In this document: positions 3,271 through 25,180 of the stretch, piece after piece
How positions within the stretch are numbered: the first letter of the stretch is position 1
Layout of the letters: every line of letters starts with the position of its first letter
Virus record (IMG/VR): IMGVR_UViG_3300034418_005549
Location: 1-25,289 of that record
DNA from: a virus
Length of the DNA stretch: 25,289 bases
Strand: one strand, 5' to 3'
Made by a program: the position numbers and the translations under genes
Notes under the pieces: generated by a model
The model's database searches: none
What the model was told of the DNA's origin: nothing
What the model saw: the letters and a program-made list of their open reading frames with translations, nothing else

Positions 3271-5489
3271 GTCAGGTCACTCCCGGCGATAATGGCCGTG
3301 TCGTCACTCACCATTGTCACGGTCGCAAGCGTCCCGGCACCCACCGTTACACTGGTCTTGTTCGTCGCAATGTCGCCATCAAGGTAGGCGTAGGTGATCG
3401 TTCCGCGAGCAATGGTAGTAGTCCCGCTGCGGCTGAAAACCGTCACAATGTCGCCAGCCACAAGGTCACTCAGCGTCAGCGTTGCGGTTGCTGTCACGTC
3501 GTAAAGGGTTGCACCACCGTCCACGTTGACGCTGGACCCTTGTGCAATCCGGTCGGCACGCCTTACGTCCACCGTGTTGCCAGCGTCGGTGACGGTCGTC
3601 AGCGTGCCAAGTGCAACGTCGCCTTTTGTGATCGTGAGGTTGCCAGAGCTGGACCCAGTAAACGACCCGGTTCCAAGTACGAATTTATCTTCGCTTTCGT
3701 CCCAGCCGATGAAGGCGTTGTCCGCCGTGCCGCGCTCAATCACAATACCCGCGTCGTTGATGGGGGCCGTGGTCAGACCGTTTGACAGTTCGATGATGCT
3801 GTCACTCACCGCAAGGTTCGTGGTGTCGATGATGTTGTTCGTGCCGTTGACGGTCAAGTCGCCGGCCAAGATCAGGTCGTTAAACGCTACGTCGTCGGTT
3901 GTCGCTAGTGACTGGTTGATCGCGTCGAGCTTGGTTTTGTCGGCCGCAGCCATCAGGCCCGCCACGCTCGTGGTTGCGGCGGTGGTGTCTGCTAGTTTGT
4001 TCCAACTCCCACCGTGCGCAAAATACATCGCGCCGTCTGCATGGCTGTGCGCGATTGCGCCGTGGTAGGTCGTGGCGTTTGGGAATGCTGCTTGATTGGC
4101 GAAATAGAACGGGACGACCGAACCGCCAGACGTTGCGGTGATTGTGCCGGTCAGGTCAATGTTGCCGGTGCCGGTGATGTCGTTGCTGTTCAGGTCGAGG
4201 TTGCCGCCAAGCTGCGGGGTCGTGTCGTCCACAACGTCCGCAATGCCTGCGTCGGCGATCCAAGCGTAATCGGTGCCGTTGTAGCTGAGAATTTGGCCGC
4301 TGCTGGCGCTGCCGCGGTTCAGGTGCGCATCCACGGAGCTGTCCGTGTAGGCAGTCGTCTGCGCCACCCACGCGTAGTCGGTGCCGTTCCAAGAAAGCAC
4401 GTAACCGCTCGTCGGGTTGGACTGGTTCAGGTGTGCGTCTACGGAGCTGTCAGTGTAGGCGGCGGTCTGCGCCACCCAAGCGTAGTCGGTGCCGTTCCAG
4501 CTCAAAACGTAACCGCTGGTCGGGTTGCTTTGATTGAGGTGCGTGTCGACGTCGCTGTCGGTGTAGCTGCTGCCGCCACTGTTAGCGACCCACGCATAGT
4601 CGGTGCCGTTCCAGCCAAGCACCTGCCCGCTGGTGGCGCTGCTGCGGTTCAAATGCAGATCGACGTCGTTGTCGCCGTAGCCGGTCGCGCCGCTGTACGT
4701 GACCCATGACAGTTGGCCGCTGCCGTTGGTTTGCAGTACTTGGTTTGCCGTGCCGTCTGCCTGCGGCCATGACTGACCGTCCAGCACGACGCTGCCGGTG
4801 GTGTCGGGCGTAATCGCGATATTGCCCGCACTGGTGCTGGTGATCGCGTTGCCGTTGACGTCCAGCGCACCGCCGAGCTGCGGCGTGGTGTCGGTGACAA
4901 GATCGCCGCCGGTTTGTGCCACCCAAGCGTAGTCGGTGCCGTTCCATGACAGCACTTGGTTCGTGGTCGCGGCGCTCGTGTTGAGGTTCGCGTTGACGTC
5001 GCTGTCGCCGTAGCTGCTGGCGGGCGTACCCCAGGCGTAATCAGTGCCGTTCCATTGCAGCGTTTGCCCGCTGGTCGCGCTGCCGGTGTTCAGGTGTGTA
5101 TCGACGTCGCTGTCGCTGTACCCGGCAGCAGGTGTTCCCCAGGACAAGTTGCCCGCGCCGTCGGTTTGCAGCATTTGATTTGCTGTGCCGTCTGCGTTTG
5201 GCCACAGCAAGCCGTCGAGGCTGATTTTCGCGCCGCTGTACGGGTCCAACACAAGGTTGCCGGTCGTGCTGCTGATCGTGTTGCTGTTGACGTTGACGTT
5301 GTCGACTTGCAGGTCGGTGGCTGTGATCTTGCCGGCCTTGTCGACGCTGACCTTTGAGCTGCTGCCGACTTGTAGATCAAGCAGCTTGGAGTCTGCTGCC
5401 GATGCCGTGTCGGTCGCATTCATTTTGATCGACGTGAACGTCGTCGCCCCGTCGTTCCAGACATCCGTCATGTCATAAATGTTGGCCAT
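3267..5489 (-). CDS. Long tail fibre protein with tandem repeats (740 aa)
   Basis: This is a distal fibre subunit, probably trimeric and beta-rich. Residues about 124-410 hold six copies of a 30-residue unit of the form DVDxHLNxSxATSGQVLxWNGTDYAW, joined by short linkers. Two copies each of a 'WPxADGTANQxLQT' unit and a 'DTTPQLGG' unit are interspersed. The C-terminal part carries the TSVAGLMAAADKTKLDAI and SDSIIELSNG ... INDAGIVIERGTADNAFIGW motifs, common in fibres of marine T4-like and podovirus-like phages. The start ATG 5489 has AAGGA eight bases upstream. The product precedes the glycine-rich adhesin with a 4-bp overlap. Low-complexity Thr/Ser/Asp/Asn composition fits a fibre, and no enzymatic motif is visible. 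Confidence 0.85.
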   Translation of the reverse strand: MANIYDMTDVWNDGATTFTSIKMNATDTASAADSKLLDLQVGSSSKVSVDKAGKITATDLQVDNVNVNSNTISSTTGNLVLDPYSGAKISLDGLLWPNADGTANQMLQTDGAGNLSWGTPAAGYSDSDVDTHLNTGSATSGQTLQWNGTDYAWGTPASSYGDSDVNANLNTSAATTNQVLSWNGTDYAWVAQTGGDLVTDTTPQLGGALDVNGNAITSTSAGNIAITPDTTGSVVLDGQSWPQADGTANQVLQTNGSGQLSWVTYSGATGYGDNDVDLHLNRSSATSGQVLGWNGTDYAWVANSGGSSYTDSDVDTHLNQSNPTSGYVLSWNGTDYAWVAQTAAYTDSSVDAHLNQSNPTSGYVLSWNGTDYAWVAQTTAYTDSSVDAHLNRGSASSGQILSYNGTDYAWIADAGIADVVDDTTPQLGGNLDLNSNDITGTGNIDLTGTITATSGGSVVPFYFANQAAFPNATTYHGAIAHSHADGAMYFAHGGSWNKLADTTAATTSVAGLMAAADKTKLDAINQSLATTDDVAFNDLILAGDLTVNGTNNIIDTTNLAVSDSIIELSNGLTTAPINDAGIVIERGTADNAFIGWDESEDKFVLGTGSFTGSSSGNLTITKGDVALGTLTTVTDAGNTVDVRRADRIAQGSSVNVDGGATLYDVTATATLTLSDLVAGDIVTVFSRSGTTTIARGTITYAYLDGDIATNKTSVTVGAGTLATVTMVSDDTAIIAGSDLT
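4260..5120 (-). repeat. Six degenerate repeats coding for a 30-residue fibre unit
   Basis: Copies correspond to fibre residues 124-153, 160-189, 271-300, 309-338, 345-374 and 381-410. The fourth and fifth copies are almost identical in protein (HLNQSNPTSGYVLSWNGTDY in both) and very similar in DNA, with a spacing of 108 bp. These would be the most recent duplication. They are coding repeats and not a CRISPR array: there are no unique spacers and the frame continues through them. Confidence 0.85.
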
Positions 5490-5500
5490 TTTTCGGATCC

Positions 5501-6592
5501 TTAGAGTTTAAGCTGGTAGGCTTCGGGGGTTGAGATAATGCCGGTGCTGCGGAGCGCCGTGCCGGTGTGCGGGCTTAGGCCGATCTGTCTGCCCCACAGA
5601 GCGCGCCTCGATGCAAAATCAGGGATTTCAAAAGAGGTCTTGTAGTGAGTGCTGCTTACATCGCTAATCGCCGCGATCTGCTGGCTCGGCCCAACGTCAA
5701 AGTCGGCCGGAGCCTGAACGAGCGAACTCGTCGCGTCGAATTTGGTCGCGCCGTTCCAGGTGATTGTGGCCCAATTGTAAGCCGTCGACGCAGTGCCTTC
5801 GACCAAGTAGACAGAACCGCTGCTGTCTCGCGCGGAGCCAAACCACTTAGTCCCCGTCAAGTTTGCTGATCTTGGCGGGCGCGGCATGGTTGGCGAGCCG
5901 CCGAGTACGCTGGATAGCGAGTAATCTGCATTTACGTACTTACGCACGAACGTCATGCTATTGACGAGCCAAGGCGTGCTGAGCTGCCATTGATAAGTGT
6001 TGTTGTTGGCGTTGTCGGTGACGTACAGCATGGTCCCGTCTTGGCTGAATGTTATGTCTGAGAAGCCAAACGTCGACGGCACCCAGTTCGTTCCCGACGT
6101 GTAAGGCCCAGCCGTGTAGGTCGCAGACGATGCCAGCCCCGAAAAGTTCCAAGGCTGCGAAAGCGCGACTTGATAAATTTTTAGGTCACTGTCGGCCGGG
6201 TAATATGCCCAGTTGCCATCGCCGCTGACGCAGACGCGATCATACCCAGACAAAGCGATACCTGTCGGGCGTGTGACGGTCGTCCAAGTGCCAGTCGTGG
6301 ACATGTCGAATGGCGTGGATAGCGTCGAGACGTAAAGATCGGTCCCGTTCAATTCCAGCATGACTTGCGAACCGTCAAGCGTGCTGCCGTTCGGCGCACC
6401 GGCCCACTGCACGCTGTAGCCACGCGTTGTCGTTTCCGGCGACGTTCCCACCAACCTAGCGTCGCTCATGCTGCCCTCTACGGTGATCGGTGCAGCCGGC
6501 CGCAAAACGCCGCTTGTGCGCAGCAGATTGTTGCCGCTGGTCTGGATCGGGTTTGCACCGATCAGTCCGCCGTAGTGCCAGCCTGCCGTCAT
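5501..6592 (-). CDS. Tail protein with propeller-type repeats (363 aa)
   Basis: Residues about 85-230 contain repeated blade-like segments: LNGTDLYVSTLSTPFDMST, SGDGNWAYYPADSDLKIYQV and FSQDGTMLYVTDNANNNTYQ, each followed by a 'LSxPW' turn. The pattern 'DGTxLYVTDxxNNTxYQWxLSTPW' is typical of a family of phage tail proteins with beta-propeller-like repeats. A role in the tail fibre or in surface binding is inferred from that and from its place between a small fibre-base-like gene and the long fibre. It starts at ATG 6592, one base after the upstream stop (TAACATG), with GGA about nine bases ahead. No enzymatic residues are apparent. Confidence 0.7.
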   Translation of the reverse strand: MTAGWHYGGLIGANPIQTSGNNLLRTSGVLRPAAPITVEGSMSDARLVGTSPETTTRGYSVQWAGAPNGSTLDGSQVMLELNGTDLYVSTLSTPFDMSTTGTWTTVTRPTGIALSGYDRVCVSGDGNWAYYPADSDLKIYQVALSQPWNFSGLASSATYTAGPYTSGTNWVPSTFGFSDITFSQDGTMLYVTDNANNNTYQWQLSTPWLVNSMTFVRKYVNADYSLSSVLGGSPTMPRPPRSANLTGTKWFGSARDSSGSVYLVEGTASTAYNWATITWNGATKFDATSSLVQAPADFDVGPSQQIAAISDVSSTHYKTSFEIPDFASRRALWGRQIGLSPHTGTALRSTGIISTPEAYQLKL

Positions 6593-20661: not shown

Positions 20662-20955
20662 TTACTGATTTGTTGTCAGTTTTTTAACATTTTGAGCGGG
20701 CTTTGCCAAACCAGCGGCCTTTTGGTCTGCAATGTACTGCTCGACCTCCTCGGGCCGCATGGTGCGGAATTTCTGCTTGAAGCGCTCGGCGAGCTTGTCG
20801 CGGCACAGCAGCGCGCGTTCTTTGAGCTGGTCGCGGTCGAGGCTTTGAGTTGACCCACTGTCACCCACGCAAGCCCGGTCGCCGTTCTCGCCGACAAAAT
20901 AGAATTTGTAATCAATGCGCGCCCAAGCGGGCAGGTCAGACGATCCAGCTATCAT
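20662..20955 (-). CDS. Small protein of unknown function after TerL (97 aa)
   Basis: I use ATG 20955, which overlaps the TerL 3' end by 20 bp; an upstream start at 21021 would overlap it by 86 bp and is less likely. The first half contains LPAWARIDYKFYFVGENGD and two Cys; the second half is helical and charged (DQLKERALLCRDKLAERFKQ, RTMRPEEVEQYIADQKAAG). I recognise no family. It lies between TerL and the tiny genes before the portal, so it belongs to the packaging cluster. Confidence 0.6.
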   Translation of the reverse strand: MIAGSSDLPAWARIDYKFYFVGENGDRACVGDSGSTQSLDRDQLKERALLCRDKLAERFKQKFRTMRPEEVEQYIADQKAAGLAKPAQNVKKLTTNQ

Positions 20956-22330
20956 CGTATCCAATCGTTTTGGCGTAGCGATACCCAGCCGCAGACCCGG
21001 CGCGGGCGGCTTGGCCGGCAAAGGTCAAAACGAACGCGTCAGCCAAGTCAGGCGATTTCAGCCCCCGGCGTTTCATCTCGTCTTTGCCTTCGACCTTCAT
21101 TTTGCCAGTGCTGAGAAACGTGAAAGTCGGCGCGGTCAGCTCGGCGATCAGCTTTTCGTCGTCGGGGATCGTGCAGTCGCGTTCCTCAAAAAAGGCGCGC
21201 GTTTTACCCCACAATTCATCACGCAGTTTGGCGTACTTACTGGCCATTGCGGGACTTTCTGAGACGTTAACTCCGCGGACTTGCGGGCCGAGGTCGATTT
21301 CGCGCAAACGGTCGACCACGCCAGCGCCCAAACCAATCACGTCAATCAGGATTTCGCTTGGCCGATCGTCGTATGGCGTGGCGTCGTATTCCTGTATCAC
21401 GCGGCCCACGACCTGCATGGTGTCGAGGTCTTGCCACGACTTGACCGGCTCGACCAATTCGTTGCCGCGCCGTTTTGCCAGTGCTGTTCGGTCTGACCCA
21501 AAGCGCGCCACGTCGAGACCCCAAACCGTCTTGATGCCGAGCGTCGGTTCGACGTCGCGGTCGCGCGCCGCTTCGACAAGGTGGCGCGGGATCAGGCTGT
21601 CGCTGTCGCCAGTTGGGAATTCTCCTAATACGCGAACACGGTAGGCGTTGCTCTCGTCTCCGTATTGGGAGGCCATGTCCGCGATGAAGGCGTCTTGCAC
21701 GTAATCGGCGTCTTCGGAGCTGACGGTTTGCTTGGCCCAGCGGTCTGCATTCTTGTTGAACGCGTCGAAGAAATAGCCCTGCGCGCGGGTCGGGTTGCCC
21801 ACCATGATGATCTTTGCGCCCTCGGTGGACAGCGCGCCCTGGGCCGTCTCGAAGATGATTTCCGGCACGCCGGAGGCTTCATCCACGACAAACAGCATAT
21901 TGTCGGCGTGAAAACCTGCCAGCGCTTCGGGCTGGTCGCGGCGGGCGGTTCGAGCCACGGCAAAGCTGTCTTCGCCGCCGACGAGCGTGATTTTGTCGGA
22001 TTTGATTTCGAGCTGACTGGCGAACGCGTCGTTCATGCGGCCGTGCCATTTGCGGATTTCGGACCACAAAACATCGTTAAGCTGACTCGCGGTGTTCGCG
22101 GTGACGGCGACTTTGACGGGGTAGCGGGTCGAGAGAAACCACAGAATGGCCCACGACAAGAAAGCCGTTTTGCCGACGCCGTGGCCGGATTTGACGGCGA
22201 CGCGGTCGTTGTCGCGGAGGTTTTCGAGGGCGCGCTTTTGCCAGCGTTGCGGCGTTGCGCCGATGACCTGCGTGACGAATAACGCCGGGTCGTCGCGGAG
22301 TTTGGCGAGGTAGGATTGCCAGTCACTCAT
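20936..22330 (-). CDS. Terminase large subunit (ATPase and nuclease)
   Basis: The 464-residue motor protein drives DNA into the prohead and cuts the concatemer. The ATPase half shows Walker A SGHGVGKT (48-55), Walker B MLFVVDEAS (145-153) and the coupling motif GNPT (178-181). The RNase H-like nuclease half shows WGLDVARFGSD with Asp273, EILIDVIGLGAGV with Asp330 and LKSPDLADAF near the C-terminus with the third acidic cluster. All key residues are present. The start ATG 22330 overlaps the methyltransferase stop by 8 bp. It resembles TerL of P22-like and marine podoviruses in length and motif order. Confidence 0.95.
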   Translation of the reverse strand: MSDWQSYLAKLRDDPALFVTQVIGATPQRWQKRALENLRDNDRVAVKSGHGVGKTAFLSWAILWFLSTRYPVKVAVTANTASQLNDVLWSEIRKWHGRMNDAFASQLEIKSDKITLVGGEDSFAVARTARRDQPEALAGFHADNMLFVVDEASGVPEIIFETAQGALSTEGAKIIMVGNPTRAQGYFFDAFNKNADRWAKQTVSSEDADYVQDAFIADMASQYGDESNAYRVRVLGEFPTGDSDSLIPRHLVEAARDRDVEPTLGIKTVWGLDVARFGSDRTALAKRRGNELVEPVKSWQDLDTMQVVGRVIQEYDATPYDDRPSEILIDVIGLGAGVVDRLREIDLGPQVRGVNVSESPAMASKYAKLRDELWGKTRAFFEERDCTIPDDEKLIAELTAPTFTFLSTGKMKVEGKDEMKRRGLKSPDLADAFVLTFAGQAARAGSAAGYRYAKTIGYDDSWIV

Positions 22331-23531
22331 CCAGCAAGACCGCCGTTTCGCCGGTGTAGTCTTCCCAGCGCTTTATGATGACGTCGCAATATTTCGGGTC
22401 GAGCTCCATCAGCCGGGCTTCGCGGCCTGTCTTTTCGCAAGCGATAAGCGTGCTGCCGGAGCCGCCGAAAAGGTCGAGAACAAGCGCGCCCGCAAGCGAG
22501 CTGTGGCCAATTGCGTTTTCGACCAATTCGACAGGCTTCATCGTCGGATGTAAGTCGCTGGAACGCGGGCGAGGGAAATCCCAGACGTTTGTGAGCTTGC
22601 GGTCATTTGTAAAAGCCGACCCAGTCTTGTTCCAGCCAAACCAGCACGGCTCATATTTGTTCTGATATTTGCCGCGCCCCAGCGTGAATTGGTCTTTGTT
22701 CCAGACAATCGTGGTGCTGCAATGCAGCGCTTTGTCTAACTCAGTAAACATAACGCGCCCGTCGGCACCGGGCGGGCCAAAAACATAAACGCAGCCATCG
22801 CAATGCGCCTTAATGCAACCGACAAAAGAGGCGCAAAAATCCGCAAACGCGCCGATTGACATGTTGTCGTTTTCAATCGACCGCGCCTTAAATTTTGGGT
22901 GTTTAATATTGCCGTAATCAATGTTGTAAGGCGGGTCGGTGAAAACCATGTCCGCTTTGCCGCCGTCCATCAGCCGGTCGACCGCGTCAATCGACGTGCT
23001 GTCGCCGCACATCAGGCGATGCCGCCCAAGCTGCCACACGTCGCCCAGCTTTGTTGTCGGCTCTTCCGGCACCTCCGGCACGGCGTCATCATCGGTCAGC
23101 CCAGCTTCAAGCGGGTCGGCCAGGAACACGTCAATTTCCTTGGCGTCAAAGCCGGTCAATTCGAGATCAAAGCCCAAGTCGCCCAGCTCGGCGAACTCGA
23201 CTTTCAGCATTTCCTCATCCCAGCCAGCGTTCAGCGCGAGCCGGTTGTCCGCAATGACGTAGGCGCGTTTTTGCGCGTCGGTAAGATGCCCAAGCCGCAA
23301 ACACGGCACCTCGTCAATTCCGAGCTTACGCGCGGCGCTAAGGCGTCCATGCCCTGCGATGATGCCGCCATCCTCGTCAATCAGGATCGGATTGGTAAAC
23401 CCAAACTCTTTGATCGATGCCGCGATCTGCGCGACCTGGGCGTCATCGTGCGTGCGGCTGTTGCGGGCGTATGGGACCAGATCCGCAGCGGGCAAGATTT
23501 CGATTTTTTGGGGGAGTGTCACGTCAGTCAT
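22323..23531 (-). CDS. ParB/sulfiredoxin domain fused to an adenine or cytosine-N4 DNA methyltransferase
   Basis: Residues about 10-110 are a ParB N-terminal-like domain (VPYARNSRTHDDAQVAQIAA; GHGRLSAARKLG at 60-71, whose GxxR box binds nucleotide in this superfamily). Residues about 160-395 are an amino-methyltransferase: TDPPYN with catalytic DPPY at 199-202 and the SAM-binding DLFGGSGST at 353-361. Motif IV precedes motif I, which is the beta-class order. The product is N6-methyladenine or N4-methylcytosine; the recognition site cannot be read. No restriction partner is seen, so it looks like an orphan that protects phage DNA from host nucleases or marks it for packaging or regulation. It overlaps TerL by 8 bp and the zinc-ribbon gene by 8 bp. 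Confidence 0.9.
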   Translation of the reverse strand: MTDVTLPQKIEILPAADLVPYARNSRTHDDAQVAQIAASIKEFGFTNPILIDEDGGIIAGHGRLSAARKLGIDEVPCLRLGHLTDAQKRAYVIADNRLALNAGWDEEMLKVEFAELGDLGFDLELTGFDAKEIDVFLADPLEAGLTDDDAVPEVPEEPTTKLGDVWQLGRHRLMCGDSTSIDAVDRLMDGGKADMVFTDPPYNIDYGNIKHPKFKARSIENDNMSIGAFADFCASFVGCIKAHCDGCVYVFGPPGADGRVMFTELDKALHCSTTIVWNKDQFTLGRGKYQNKYEPCWFGWNKTGSAFTNDRKLTNVWDFPRPRSSDLHPTMKPVELVENAIGHSSLAGALVLDLFGGSGSTLIACEKTGREARLMELDPKYCDVIIKRWEDYTGETAVLLDE

Positions 23532-23664
23532 TTACACCAACCGCCTTGCAGGGCTTGCCGCAGCGCCCGCAGTCGTTCTTGAACCGCCAAAACACGCGGC
23601 ACGCGGCGCACCACCACATCGTTTCATTATGCTGAAATGCCTCGGCGACGGCTTGAGCGACCAC
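23524..23664 (-). CDS. Small zinc-ribbon protein upstream of the methyltransferase (46 aa)
   Basis: The protein begins VAQAVAEAFQHNETMWWCAA and has WWCAAC then CGRCGKPC, that is CxxC and CxxCxxxC knuckles that would hold one zinc. The start GTG 23664 is chosen because GAGG lies seven bases ahead, right after the terminator T-run. An internal ATG, 15 codons later and next to the WWC, is the alternative. It overlaps the methyltransferase by 8 bp, so the two are translationally coupled. Such tiny zinc ribbons often bind nucleic acid or protein partners. A partner role for the methyltransferase is inferred from coupling only. A longer overlapping frame in another phase lacks a ribosome site and motif, so I prefer this one. 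Confidence 0.65.
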   Translation of the reverse strand: MVAQAVAEAFQHNETMWWCAACRVFWRFKNDCGRCGKPCKAVGVND

Positions 23665-23871
23665 GGCGAAACCTCAAAAAAATGCCCCGCCGGTGGAGGA
23701 TGGGCGGCGGGGCGAGTTTTCGGCAACCCGAAAGAGAGATATTGCCCCCGGCGCGGCGTTGACGGTGATCGCAAAAGTTGAAGGGAGGAAGCGACCACCA
23801 TCACCGTTGTTTCACACACCAAGGAGGCAAACCGACTGTTACAAATTGGTGGTCGGTAGGCAAGGGCAAAA
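23665..23871 (-). promoter_or_regulatory. Structured leader RNA upstream of the zinc-ribbon/methyltransferase/TerL genes
   Basis: This 207-bp gap holds no convincing gene, but on the minus strand it shows a chain of inverted repeats. GTCGGT (23852-23857) pairs with ACCGAC (23831-23836). GGTGGTCG (23848-23855) pairs with CGACCACC (23792-23799). ATCACCGT (23800-23807) pairs with ACGGTGAT (23762-23769). TTTCGG (23718-23723) pairs with CCGAAA (23728-23733) around a GTTG loop. A terminator follows at 23676-23713. The first two helices share bases and exclude each other. This is the layout of an attenuator or riboswitch-like leader, but it matches no class I recognise. It may contain a promoter; I see no clear -35/-10 pair. 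Confidence 0.5.
23676..23713 (-). terminator. Intrinsic terminator directly before the zinc-ribbon ribosome site
   Basis: On the minus strand GCCCCGCCG pairs perfectly with CGGCGGGGC (9 bp, 12-base loop) and is followed by A then seven T residues. The GAGG ribosome site of the next gene starts at the very next base (23675). A promoter cannot fit between them, so the downstream packaging genes need read-through or antitermination of this stem, or a separate promoter inside the zinc-ribbon gene. Confidence 0.85.
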
Positions 23872-24507: not shown

Positions 24508-24601
24508 TGGGGTGTCATCCTGTTTTCAGATTGAGAAAGGGGGGGCTAAGGGGGGCGCCAAATAATAACTGCCCCCGCGTGTCTGAGCGAAGGGGGGGGG
24601 T
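24508..24601. other. Homopolymer-rich gap between TerS and the next gene
   Basis: On the plus strand this 94-bp gap has runs of seven G (24539-24545), six G (24550-24555) and nine G (24592-24600), plus five C (24572-24576), which can pair with a G-run to form a hairpin. No gene is seen. The long G-runs could fold into a G-quadruplex on the plus strand, or serve as a terminase recognition feature; neither is shown by the sequence alone. Confidence 0.6.
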
Positions 24602-25180
24602 CTAGGTGTCGTCCGCCTGGGCGCGTCGGGCGGCTTTCTTGCGCCGGTTCGCGACGCTCTGCTTCGCGCCTTTCAGCAGCCGATCCGTCGCCGCTTCGGC
24701 GTCCATTGTCGCTGGGGTATAACTTCCGTCATCCTTAACCTTTTGATCGTACAAGGCTTTTCGCTTTGGCTGTTCCTCAAGTCGTCCGACTTCGGACGCA
24801 TCGCCGTCGATGACCTTGGTTTGCGCCATCTCGCGCAGGGCCGATGCGAGCGTGACCTCGCCTTTGACCTCGACGTCGAGCTTCTCGGTCCAGCGGCCCT
24901 GCGTCTTGAGGTAAAACATCAGCGATTGCGTGTCGCCGTCGAGCGCTTTTTGCACGAGCGTCTGGGCAACTCGACCTATGGTATTACTTCTACCCTCCTG
25001 ATAAATTTCCATGATTTCAGGGTCTTCCCTACACATCGCGTCGAAGTTCGCCTGACTGATCCGAAAGTATGCGGCGACCTGATTGATGTTCAACAACCCA
25101 GCCAGCCGCCGGAGCTGATCGAGCTCGTCGTCTGTCAGCTTGCGCCGTGCGCCGAATTCTTTGTGTTTGCGCTCAGTCAT
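24602..25180 (-). CDS. Terminase small subunit
   Basis: The 192-residue DNA-recognition subunit of the packaging motor. The N-terminal region RKLTDDELDQLRRLAGLLNI, then QVAAYFRISQANFDAMC, is a helix-turn-helix. It is followed by the helical segment EGRSNTIGRVAQTLVQKALD and GDTQSLMFYLKTQGRWTEK. This 'HTH ... GDTxxxxFYLKTQxxW' layout is a common small-terminase family in alphaproteobacterial phages. The C-terminus is basic and probably binds TerL or DNA (RLLKGAKQSVANRRKKAARR). It starts at ATG 25180, ten bases after the upstream stop. Unusually, TerL is separated from it by four genes and a terminator. Confidence 0.85.
   Translation of the reverse strand: MTERKHKEFGARRKLTDDELDQLRRLAGLLNINQVAAYFRISQANFDAMCREDPEIMEIYQEGRSNTIGRVAQTLVQKALDGDTQSLMFYLKTQGRWTEKLDVEVKGEVTLASALREMAQTKVIDGDASEVGRLEEQPKRKALYDQKVKDDGSYTPATMDAEAATDRLLKGAKQSVANRRKKAARRAQADDT

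Follow-up and report, generated by a model that had tools for sequence, protein, structure and literature searches.

The DNA analyzed here, called the window, spans the full 25.3 kb of a virus record from IMG/VR. On its minus strand the genes run in the order TerS, an 86-aa ORF, a dATP/dGTP diphosphohydrolase-like gene, a leader, a zinc-ribbon-like ORF, a ParB/DNA methyltransferase, TerL and a SU10-type portal. The leader is the minus-strand intergenic stretch 23871-23665 (207 nt), and it is followed by these genes:

23526..23664, minus strand: zinc-ribbon-like ORF of 46 aa with a GTG start, the first gene past the terminator
22323..23531, minus strand: ParB-like/N6-N4 DNA methyltransferase (Pfam PF01555, PHROG 498), cargo between the leader and TerL
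20936..22330, minus strand: large terminase subunit, TerL (PHROG 2, Pfam PF03237), the gene with which the RNA unit tracks

The zinc-ribbon-like ORF was kept in the relatives L004, L007, L008, and L125. A coding role for the leader was considered and rejected: the 130-aa ORF spanning it (23924-23532) does not resemble those running across the leaders of relatives.

The leader is strongly folded, at -81.5 kcal/mol against -62.1 +/- 3.9 kcal/mol for dinucleotide shuffles (z -5.0), and the inferred RNA alone gave a z of -4.5; across the representative set of leaders the z-scores ranged from -1.0 to -6.3. A first-pass annotation had described inverted repeats ending in a 9-bp terminator whose T-run touches the GAGG ribosome site, and these were located where it had put them, together with the further inverted repeats I6 and I7:

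23792-23800/23847-23855, minus strand: inverted repeat I3
23762-23769/23800-23807, minus strand: inverted repeat I4
23718-23723/23728-23733, minus strand: inverted repeat I5
23677-23692/23705-23720, minus strand: inverted repeat I1 (terminator)
23684..23713, minus strand: intrinsic terminator hairpin of 9 bp, loop CCCAUCCUCCAC, with CCUCC at 23699-23695
23676..23682, minus strand: seven-T run of the terminator (AT7 past the stem), abutting GAGG at 23675-23672

The terminator arms, GCCCCGCCG and CGGCGGGGC, pair with a probability of 0.94-1.0. The hairpin was found in all positive relatives, in many of them with a CU-rich loop. With the terminator directly against the next gene's ribosome site, some transcripts must read through it or start upstream. 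The same annotation had held that the packaging operon depends on read-through or on another promoter, and in the window and the relatives that were read a promoter has no room 3' of the terminator. Covariation, the check that it had proposed, turned out weak: close leader pairs held 16 one-sided changes that kept pairing, 12 that broke it, and no two-sided changes. MAFFT alignments of the leaders (A4, A5) were uninformative on formal covariation because the lengths of loops and stems vary, the alignment of stems among distant leaders being unreliable.

At the 5' end of the leader lies a promoter-like element with a dyad in its spacer:

23836..23863, minus strand: promoter-like element TTGCCT (23863-23858)-N16-TAACAG (23841-23836), recognized by consensus, with a weak -10 in the window
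23840..23858, no strand assigned: operator-like dyad TAC-N13-GTA in the promoter spacer, which holds the helices described as competing by the first reading

All leaders of the set begin with TTG(AC)-N16-18-TA. The relatives' versions include TTGATT-N16-TAACAG/TAATGT (L005, L007), TTGACA-N17-TATACC (L156), TTGACC-N17-TATATT (L213, L216), and TTGAC-N17/18-TACACC (L113, L117, L125). All six leaders in the branch to which the window belongs share the TAC-N13-GTA dyad (the window, L005, L007, L113, L117, and L125); it is palindromic in L005 and L007, between which two further arm positions differ on both sides. Two helices had been proposed to compete for the same bases (pairings 23848-23855 and 23852-23857). 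Both use 23846-23857, that is, the spacer of the conserved promoter-like element, which would be DNA 5' of the inferred start and outside the main transcript, and the helix 23831-23836/23852-23857 overlaps the dyad. Since the competing helices fall in the promoter spacer, they more likely mark an operator in the DNA than a structure in the RNA.

Small RNAs with anti-Shine-Dalgarno (aSD) loops, encoded on alphaproteobacterial chromosomes, have known roles in stress and nutrient regulation. The putative transcript of the leader has loops of this kind:

23676..23829, minus strand: inferred small RNA of about 155 nt with an approximate start, drawn from promoter spacing, the fold z of the RNA, the terminator, and a covariance match to the Rfam family ar14 at 23811-23678
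23823..23827, minus strand: first CCUCC motif, paired in the window with the G-run 23749-23745 (P 0.997)
23760..23803, minus strand: hairpin with loop UUCCUCCCUUCAACUUUU (loop 23790-23773), the main accessible aSD loop, its motif unpaired with P 1.0
23718..23741, minus strand: CU-rich stretch UAUCUCUCUUU and small hairpin UUUCGG/CCGAAA, aligning to the second aSD hairpin of ar14

The equivalent of the first CCUCC motif is mostly unpaired in L005, L007, and L113, and the UCCUCCC loop recurs on differing stems in L113, L117, L125, and L156. The CU-rich hairpins carry the loops UUCCUCCC (window and L005), UCCUCCCAU (L113), AUUCCUCCCUC (L117), ACUCCUCCUCCCA (L125), and CUUUCCUCCC (L156), while terminator loops among the leaders include CCUCC, AUCUCUCCC, UUCUCUC, and UCCUCCC. 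In 14 representative leaders UCCUCC occurred 14 times (1.56 expected) and [UC]CUCC 37 times (9.7 expected), and none of 1000 shuffle sets reached either count; this enrichment was not fully blind because part of the leader set had been chosen by eye from upstream regions. The motif windows were also more accessible, with an unpaired probability of 0.70 against 0.50 for other C-rich pentamers (p 0.0013). A true CCUCC is absent in several leaders (L213, L157, L207, and L155).

Relatives were gathered by TerL, methyltransferase, and portal searches of IMG/VR; the close ones have TerL at 88-91%, and many others are more distant. We found that the unit stands alone in them: a promoter-like element, an RNA of ~95-165 nt with CU-rich aSD loops, and a terminator, placed just 5' of terL or of cargo genes. 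In L007/L008 the leader is followed by the zinc ribbon, methyltransferase, and TerL, and in L125 by the zinc ribbon. In L005/L006 TerL begins 20 bp past the terminator stem, with neither zinc ribbon nor methyltransferase between them; in L123 a PAPS-reductase-like gene lies between leader and TerL; and in L113, L120, L124, and others the leader precedes an N-terminally extended TerL. A search for terminators 5' of TerL that was blind to loop sequence recovered a matching arrangement in L156, L157/L160, L158, L212, L213/L217/L223, and L225, and at a slightly lower score in L216/L218/L220/L221/L222. Looser versions were found by reading in L206/L207, L155, and L161/L166, the last pair without a U-run. 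The promoter-RNA-terminator unit extends down to ~60% TerL identity.

On the TerL tree the RNA-bearing phages formed two neighbouring clades within a 27-row group (SH-aLRT 94), which also holds one leaderless set (L141, L142, L144, and L145). Three changes sufficed to map RNA presence, compared with 15.7 after shuffling; L119, a short contig whose TerL is identical to that of the leader-bearing L125, was scored as leaderless here. The leaderless phages placed elsewhere on the tree include the isolates C72C1 and phiM5; the leader is absent in both of these cultured phages, and blastn found none. The distant relative phiM5, which lacks the RNA, infects Sinorhizobium. Prophages were searched in two genome scans: the first found no TerL relatives, and the second found relatives at <=59%, with no RNA unit in the six upstream regions read. 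All four RNA-bearing records above 30 kb have a phage integrase, as does one of 24.8 kb, against 0 of 10 RNA-less records above 33 kb, a difference confounded with clade; no integrase was seen in the window or G003, both of them RNA-bearing fragments. The unit is probably kept in a clade of mostly temperate phages.

Gene content varies on both sides of the RNA unit (L005 1271-1681, L007 4072-4476, L123 1622-2407, and window 22323-23664), with 134-136-aa ORFs on the 5' side and a zinc ribbon, a methyltransferase, or a PAPS-reductase-like gene on the 3' side. The unit looks as if it were the border of a cargo insertion site.

The idea of alphaproteobacterial small RNAs carrying CCUCCUCCC predated the relaxed Rfam scan. 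At the gathering threshold the window leader matched no family. In the relaxed scan of 4227 families the top match was ar14 (RF02344), at 29.5 bits (E 5e-4), over the full model 1-123 and on the correct strand, and CcsR1 (RF02791) matched weakly at 13.2 bits. The best match was also ar14 for the leaders of L125 (33.2 bits) and L161 (22.5 bits). Searched for as a single family in 20 records, ar14 hit exactly the leaders of the window (E 1.2e-5), L125 (3.6e-7), and L161 (9.8e-5), with others at 6-8 bits. None of these three leaders reached the gathering score of 58.8 bits, and most relatives' leaders had no ar14 match.

The founder of ar14, NfeR1, is a 123-nt RNA of three hairpins, each with CCUCCUCCC, that blocks ribosome-binding sites (PMC10746234). 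Three aSD hairpins define the family and the stems are highly diverged (PMC10746234, PMC3927594); for the related SmelA075 a covariance model was judged inadequate because the stems differ highly (PMC3927594). By full-model alignment and folds, the window RNA has three hairpins of which the last is the intrinsic terminator; its minimum-energy fold differs from the ar14 alignment in the middle hairpin and adds an outer helix. The phage RNA resembles ar14/NfeR1 in its aSD-loop hairpins with the terminator last, in a sigma-70-type promoter, and in loops that stay while stems diverge. It differs in being phage-borne, in lying 5' of terL with a downstream operon that is read through, in its extra 5' outer helix, and in length (~155 against 123 nt). 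The motif differs as well: ar14/NfeR1 carry the ultraconserved CCUCCUCCC in every loop, whereas the phage RNA has UCCUCC/CUCUC. The window loops read UUCCUCCCUU, UAUCUCUCUU, and AUCCUCCACC, and among the leaders only L125 has UCCUCCUCCC. Because it falls short in both score and ultraconserved motif, the phage RNA is probably ar14-like in its mode of action and not a member of ar14. CcsR1 and the SmelA075/SmelA099/RS0680a-type CCUCCUCCC RNAs likewise consist of aSD hairpin modules in variable number (PMC3927594), and differ in being chromosomal and stress-induced. An alphaproteobacterial MAG (L274) gave an ar14-like match of 32.8 bits with the loop CCUCCUCCC at 5024-5132, in what is presumably a 3' UTR; it is a possible cellular counterpart of the phage RNA.

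Considering the promoter-driven RNA, its conserved aSD loops, and its resemblance to ar14, we favour a small RNA that also leads the late operon over a ligand switch. We put the probability at about 0.6 that the leader encodes a phage aSD small RNA which probably blocks ribosome-binding sites in trans and at the same time serves the packaging operon as its terminated leader. Transcription would begin from a sigma-70-type promoter at 23863-23836, for which the spacer palindrome is probably a regulatory site, and stop at the intrinsic terminator (23713-23676), giving an RNA of ~155 nt folded into hairpins. Its accessible UCCUCC/CUCUC loops are complementary to Shine-Dalgarno sequences, and would act in trans like alphaproteobacterial NfeR1/ar14, blocking translation by pairing with ribosome-binding sites on mRNAs of the host and perhaps of the phage. 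Packaging and structural mRNAs would arise from partial read-through or from transcripts coming from upstream; since read-through is needed, the small RNA would double as a terminated late-operon leader. What the sequences show is the conserved anatomy, the enrichment and accessibility of aSD motifs, the independence from the methyltransferase, and the ar14 resemblance; promoter activity, the start site, trans action, its targets, and the setting of read-through we infer. A regulated promoter, a terminated aSD small RNA, and partial read-through together make the most economical account, although the CU-rich loops could serve a protein instead. Judged from sequence, this is probably a conserved phage small-RNA gene, a variant of known aSD small RNAs. 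If so, late gene expression in phages is coupled to a wide-ranging regulator of translation that they carry fixed before the packaging operon, and the homologous leaders form a defined set that a reporter could test. More tentatively, a clade of temperate phages, and others independently, may have a late-operon promoter that fires a mimic of the 16S rRNA aSD tail, reshaping host and phage translation as the packaging genes switch on.

At lambda pR'-tR' (6S RNA) a late promoter yields a short terminated RNA, and the late genes need Q-dependent read-through. A late-operon leader of this style is the best placed of the other explanations, though a good deal less probable: promoter and terminator together would act as a checkpoint that a phage antitermination factor lifts, with the short RNA merely incidental and the CU-rich hairpins serving as the sites which that factor recognizes. 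The late promoter, the short terminated RNA, and the read-through requirement are shared, the unit is placed before packaging and structural genes, with its terminator abutting the first ribosome site, and the promoter spacer looks regulated. On the other hand, the phage RNA has aSD loops and lies directly before terL, and Q-type antiterminators (PF06530, PF03589) were not found in 10 records of 21-37 kb including the window, some of them incomplete, a search that antiterminators of other types would escape. Such a leader also leaves unexplained the conservation of aSD-like loops and the ar14 resemblance.

It is rather improbable that the locus is an ordinary terminator of the upstream operon next to the promoter of the downstream one, with hairpins and CU-rich loops devoid of function. 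The strength of the terminator, the weak formal covariation, and the highly variable promoter-terminator interval are what such an arrangement would give, yet in all relatives the promoter lies 5' of the terminator, not 3'. Motif enrichment and accessibility, fold z-scores mostly of -2 to -6 in independent leaders, and persistence across large TerL divergence also speak against it.

A metabolite riboswitch, or feedback on the methyltransferase through SAM or the enzyme itself, had been the first reading, and correcting it matters because it is tempting: in the window, L007, and L008 a structured leader does lie 5' of a methyltransferase. We consider it very unlikely. The leader persists where no methyltransferase follows (L005/L006 and the L113-type phages) or where other cargo does (L123), so the unit is not tied to that gene. 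The first-pass annotation had itself seen no match to a riboswitch class, and Rfam gave none at either the gathering or the relaxed threshold. No conserved sequence resembling a ligand pocket was found; the loops, promoter, and terminator alone are conserved, and the downstream gene varies. The proposed antiterminator, in which the G-run pairs with a terminator arm, is predicted at -58.0 kcal/mol when forced, against -68.9 kcal/mol for the terminator fold, a cost of ~11 kcal/mol. In the predicted ensemble the G-run pairs with the 5' UGCCUCC, and with the terminator at P 0.0, which leaves mutually exclusive terminator and antiterminator folds improbable. What stands of the proposed cis-acting switch is a structured phage RNA of no recognized class with a terminator; the switching, with its competing helices and antiterminator, does not. 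Equally improbable is a packaging RNA akin to phi29 pRNA, belonging to the terminase motor or helping it, since, for all the tight link to the terminase gene across the clade, many relatives whose TerL is similar do without the unit, no packaging role suggests itself for aSD loops, and the phi29 packaging ATPase is unrelated.

Several other elements were seen at these loci. One conserved element (ACCCCCCC-hairpin-GGGGGC, then an AT-rich/TATATA stretch) occurs at 24560-24603 (minus strand) of the window, at 313-360 of phiM5 (L137), and in L163, L172, L186, L215, and others, just 3' of terS or 5' of terL in many relatives. It may be a terminase cut site, because in phiM5 it coincides with the end of the annotated direct terminal repeat (base 357). 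In another phage group, RNAs with UCCUCC-type hairpin loops and terminators lie directly 5' of ParB/methyltransferase genes (L080 3060-3225, L108 4060-4212, and L083 ~2170-2300), with TerS-like genes 3' of the methyltransferase. A general link to methyltransferases was rejected, as aSD hairpins lay upstream in only 3 of 74 other methyltransferase loci. Just 3' of TerL in L027, at 2180-2310, a strong terminator accompanies two hairpins whose loops read UUUUCCUCCC and UUCUCCUCCCAUUC. Finally, L225, a relative of the window phage, carries a group I intron at 5306-5591 (Rfam RF00028, 85.8 bits).
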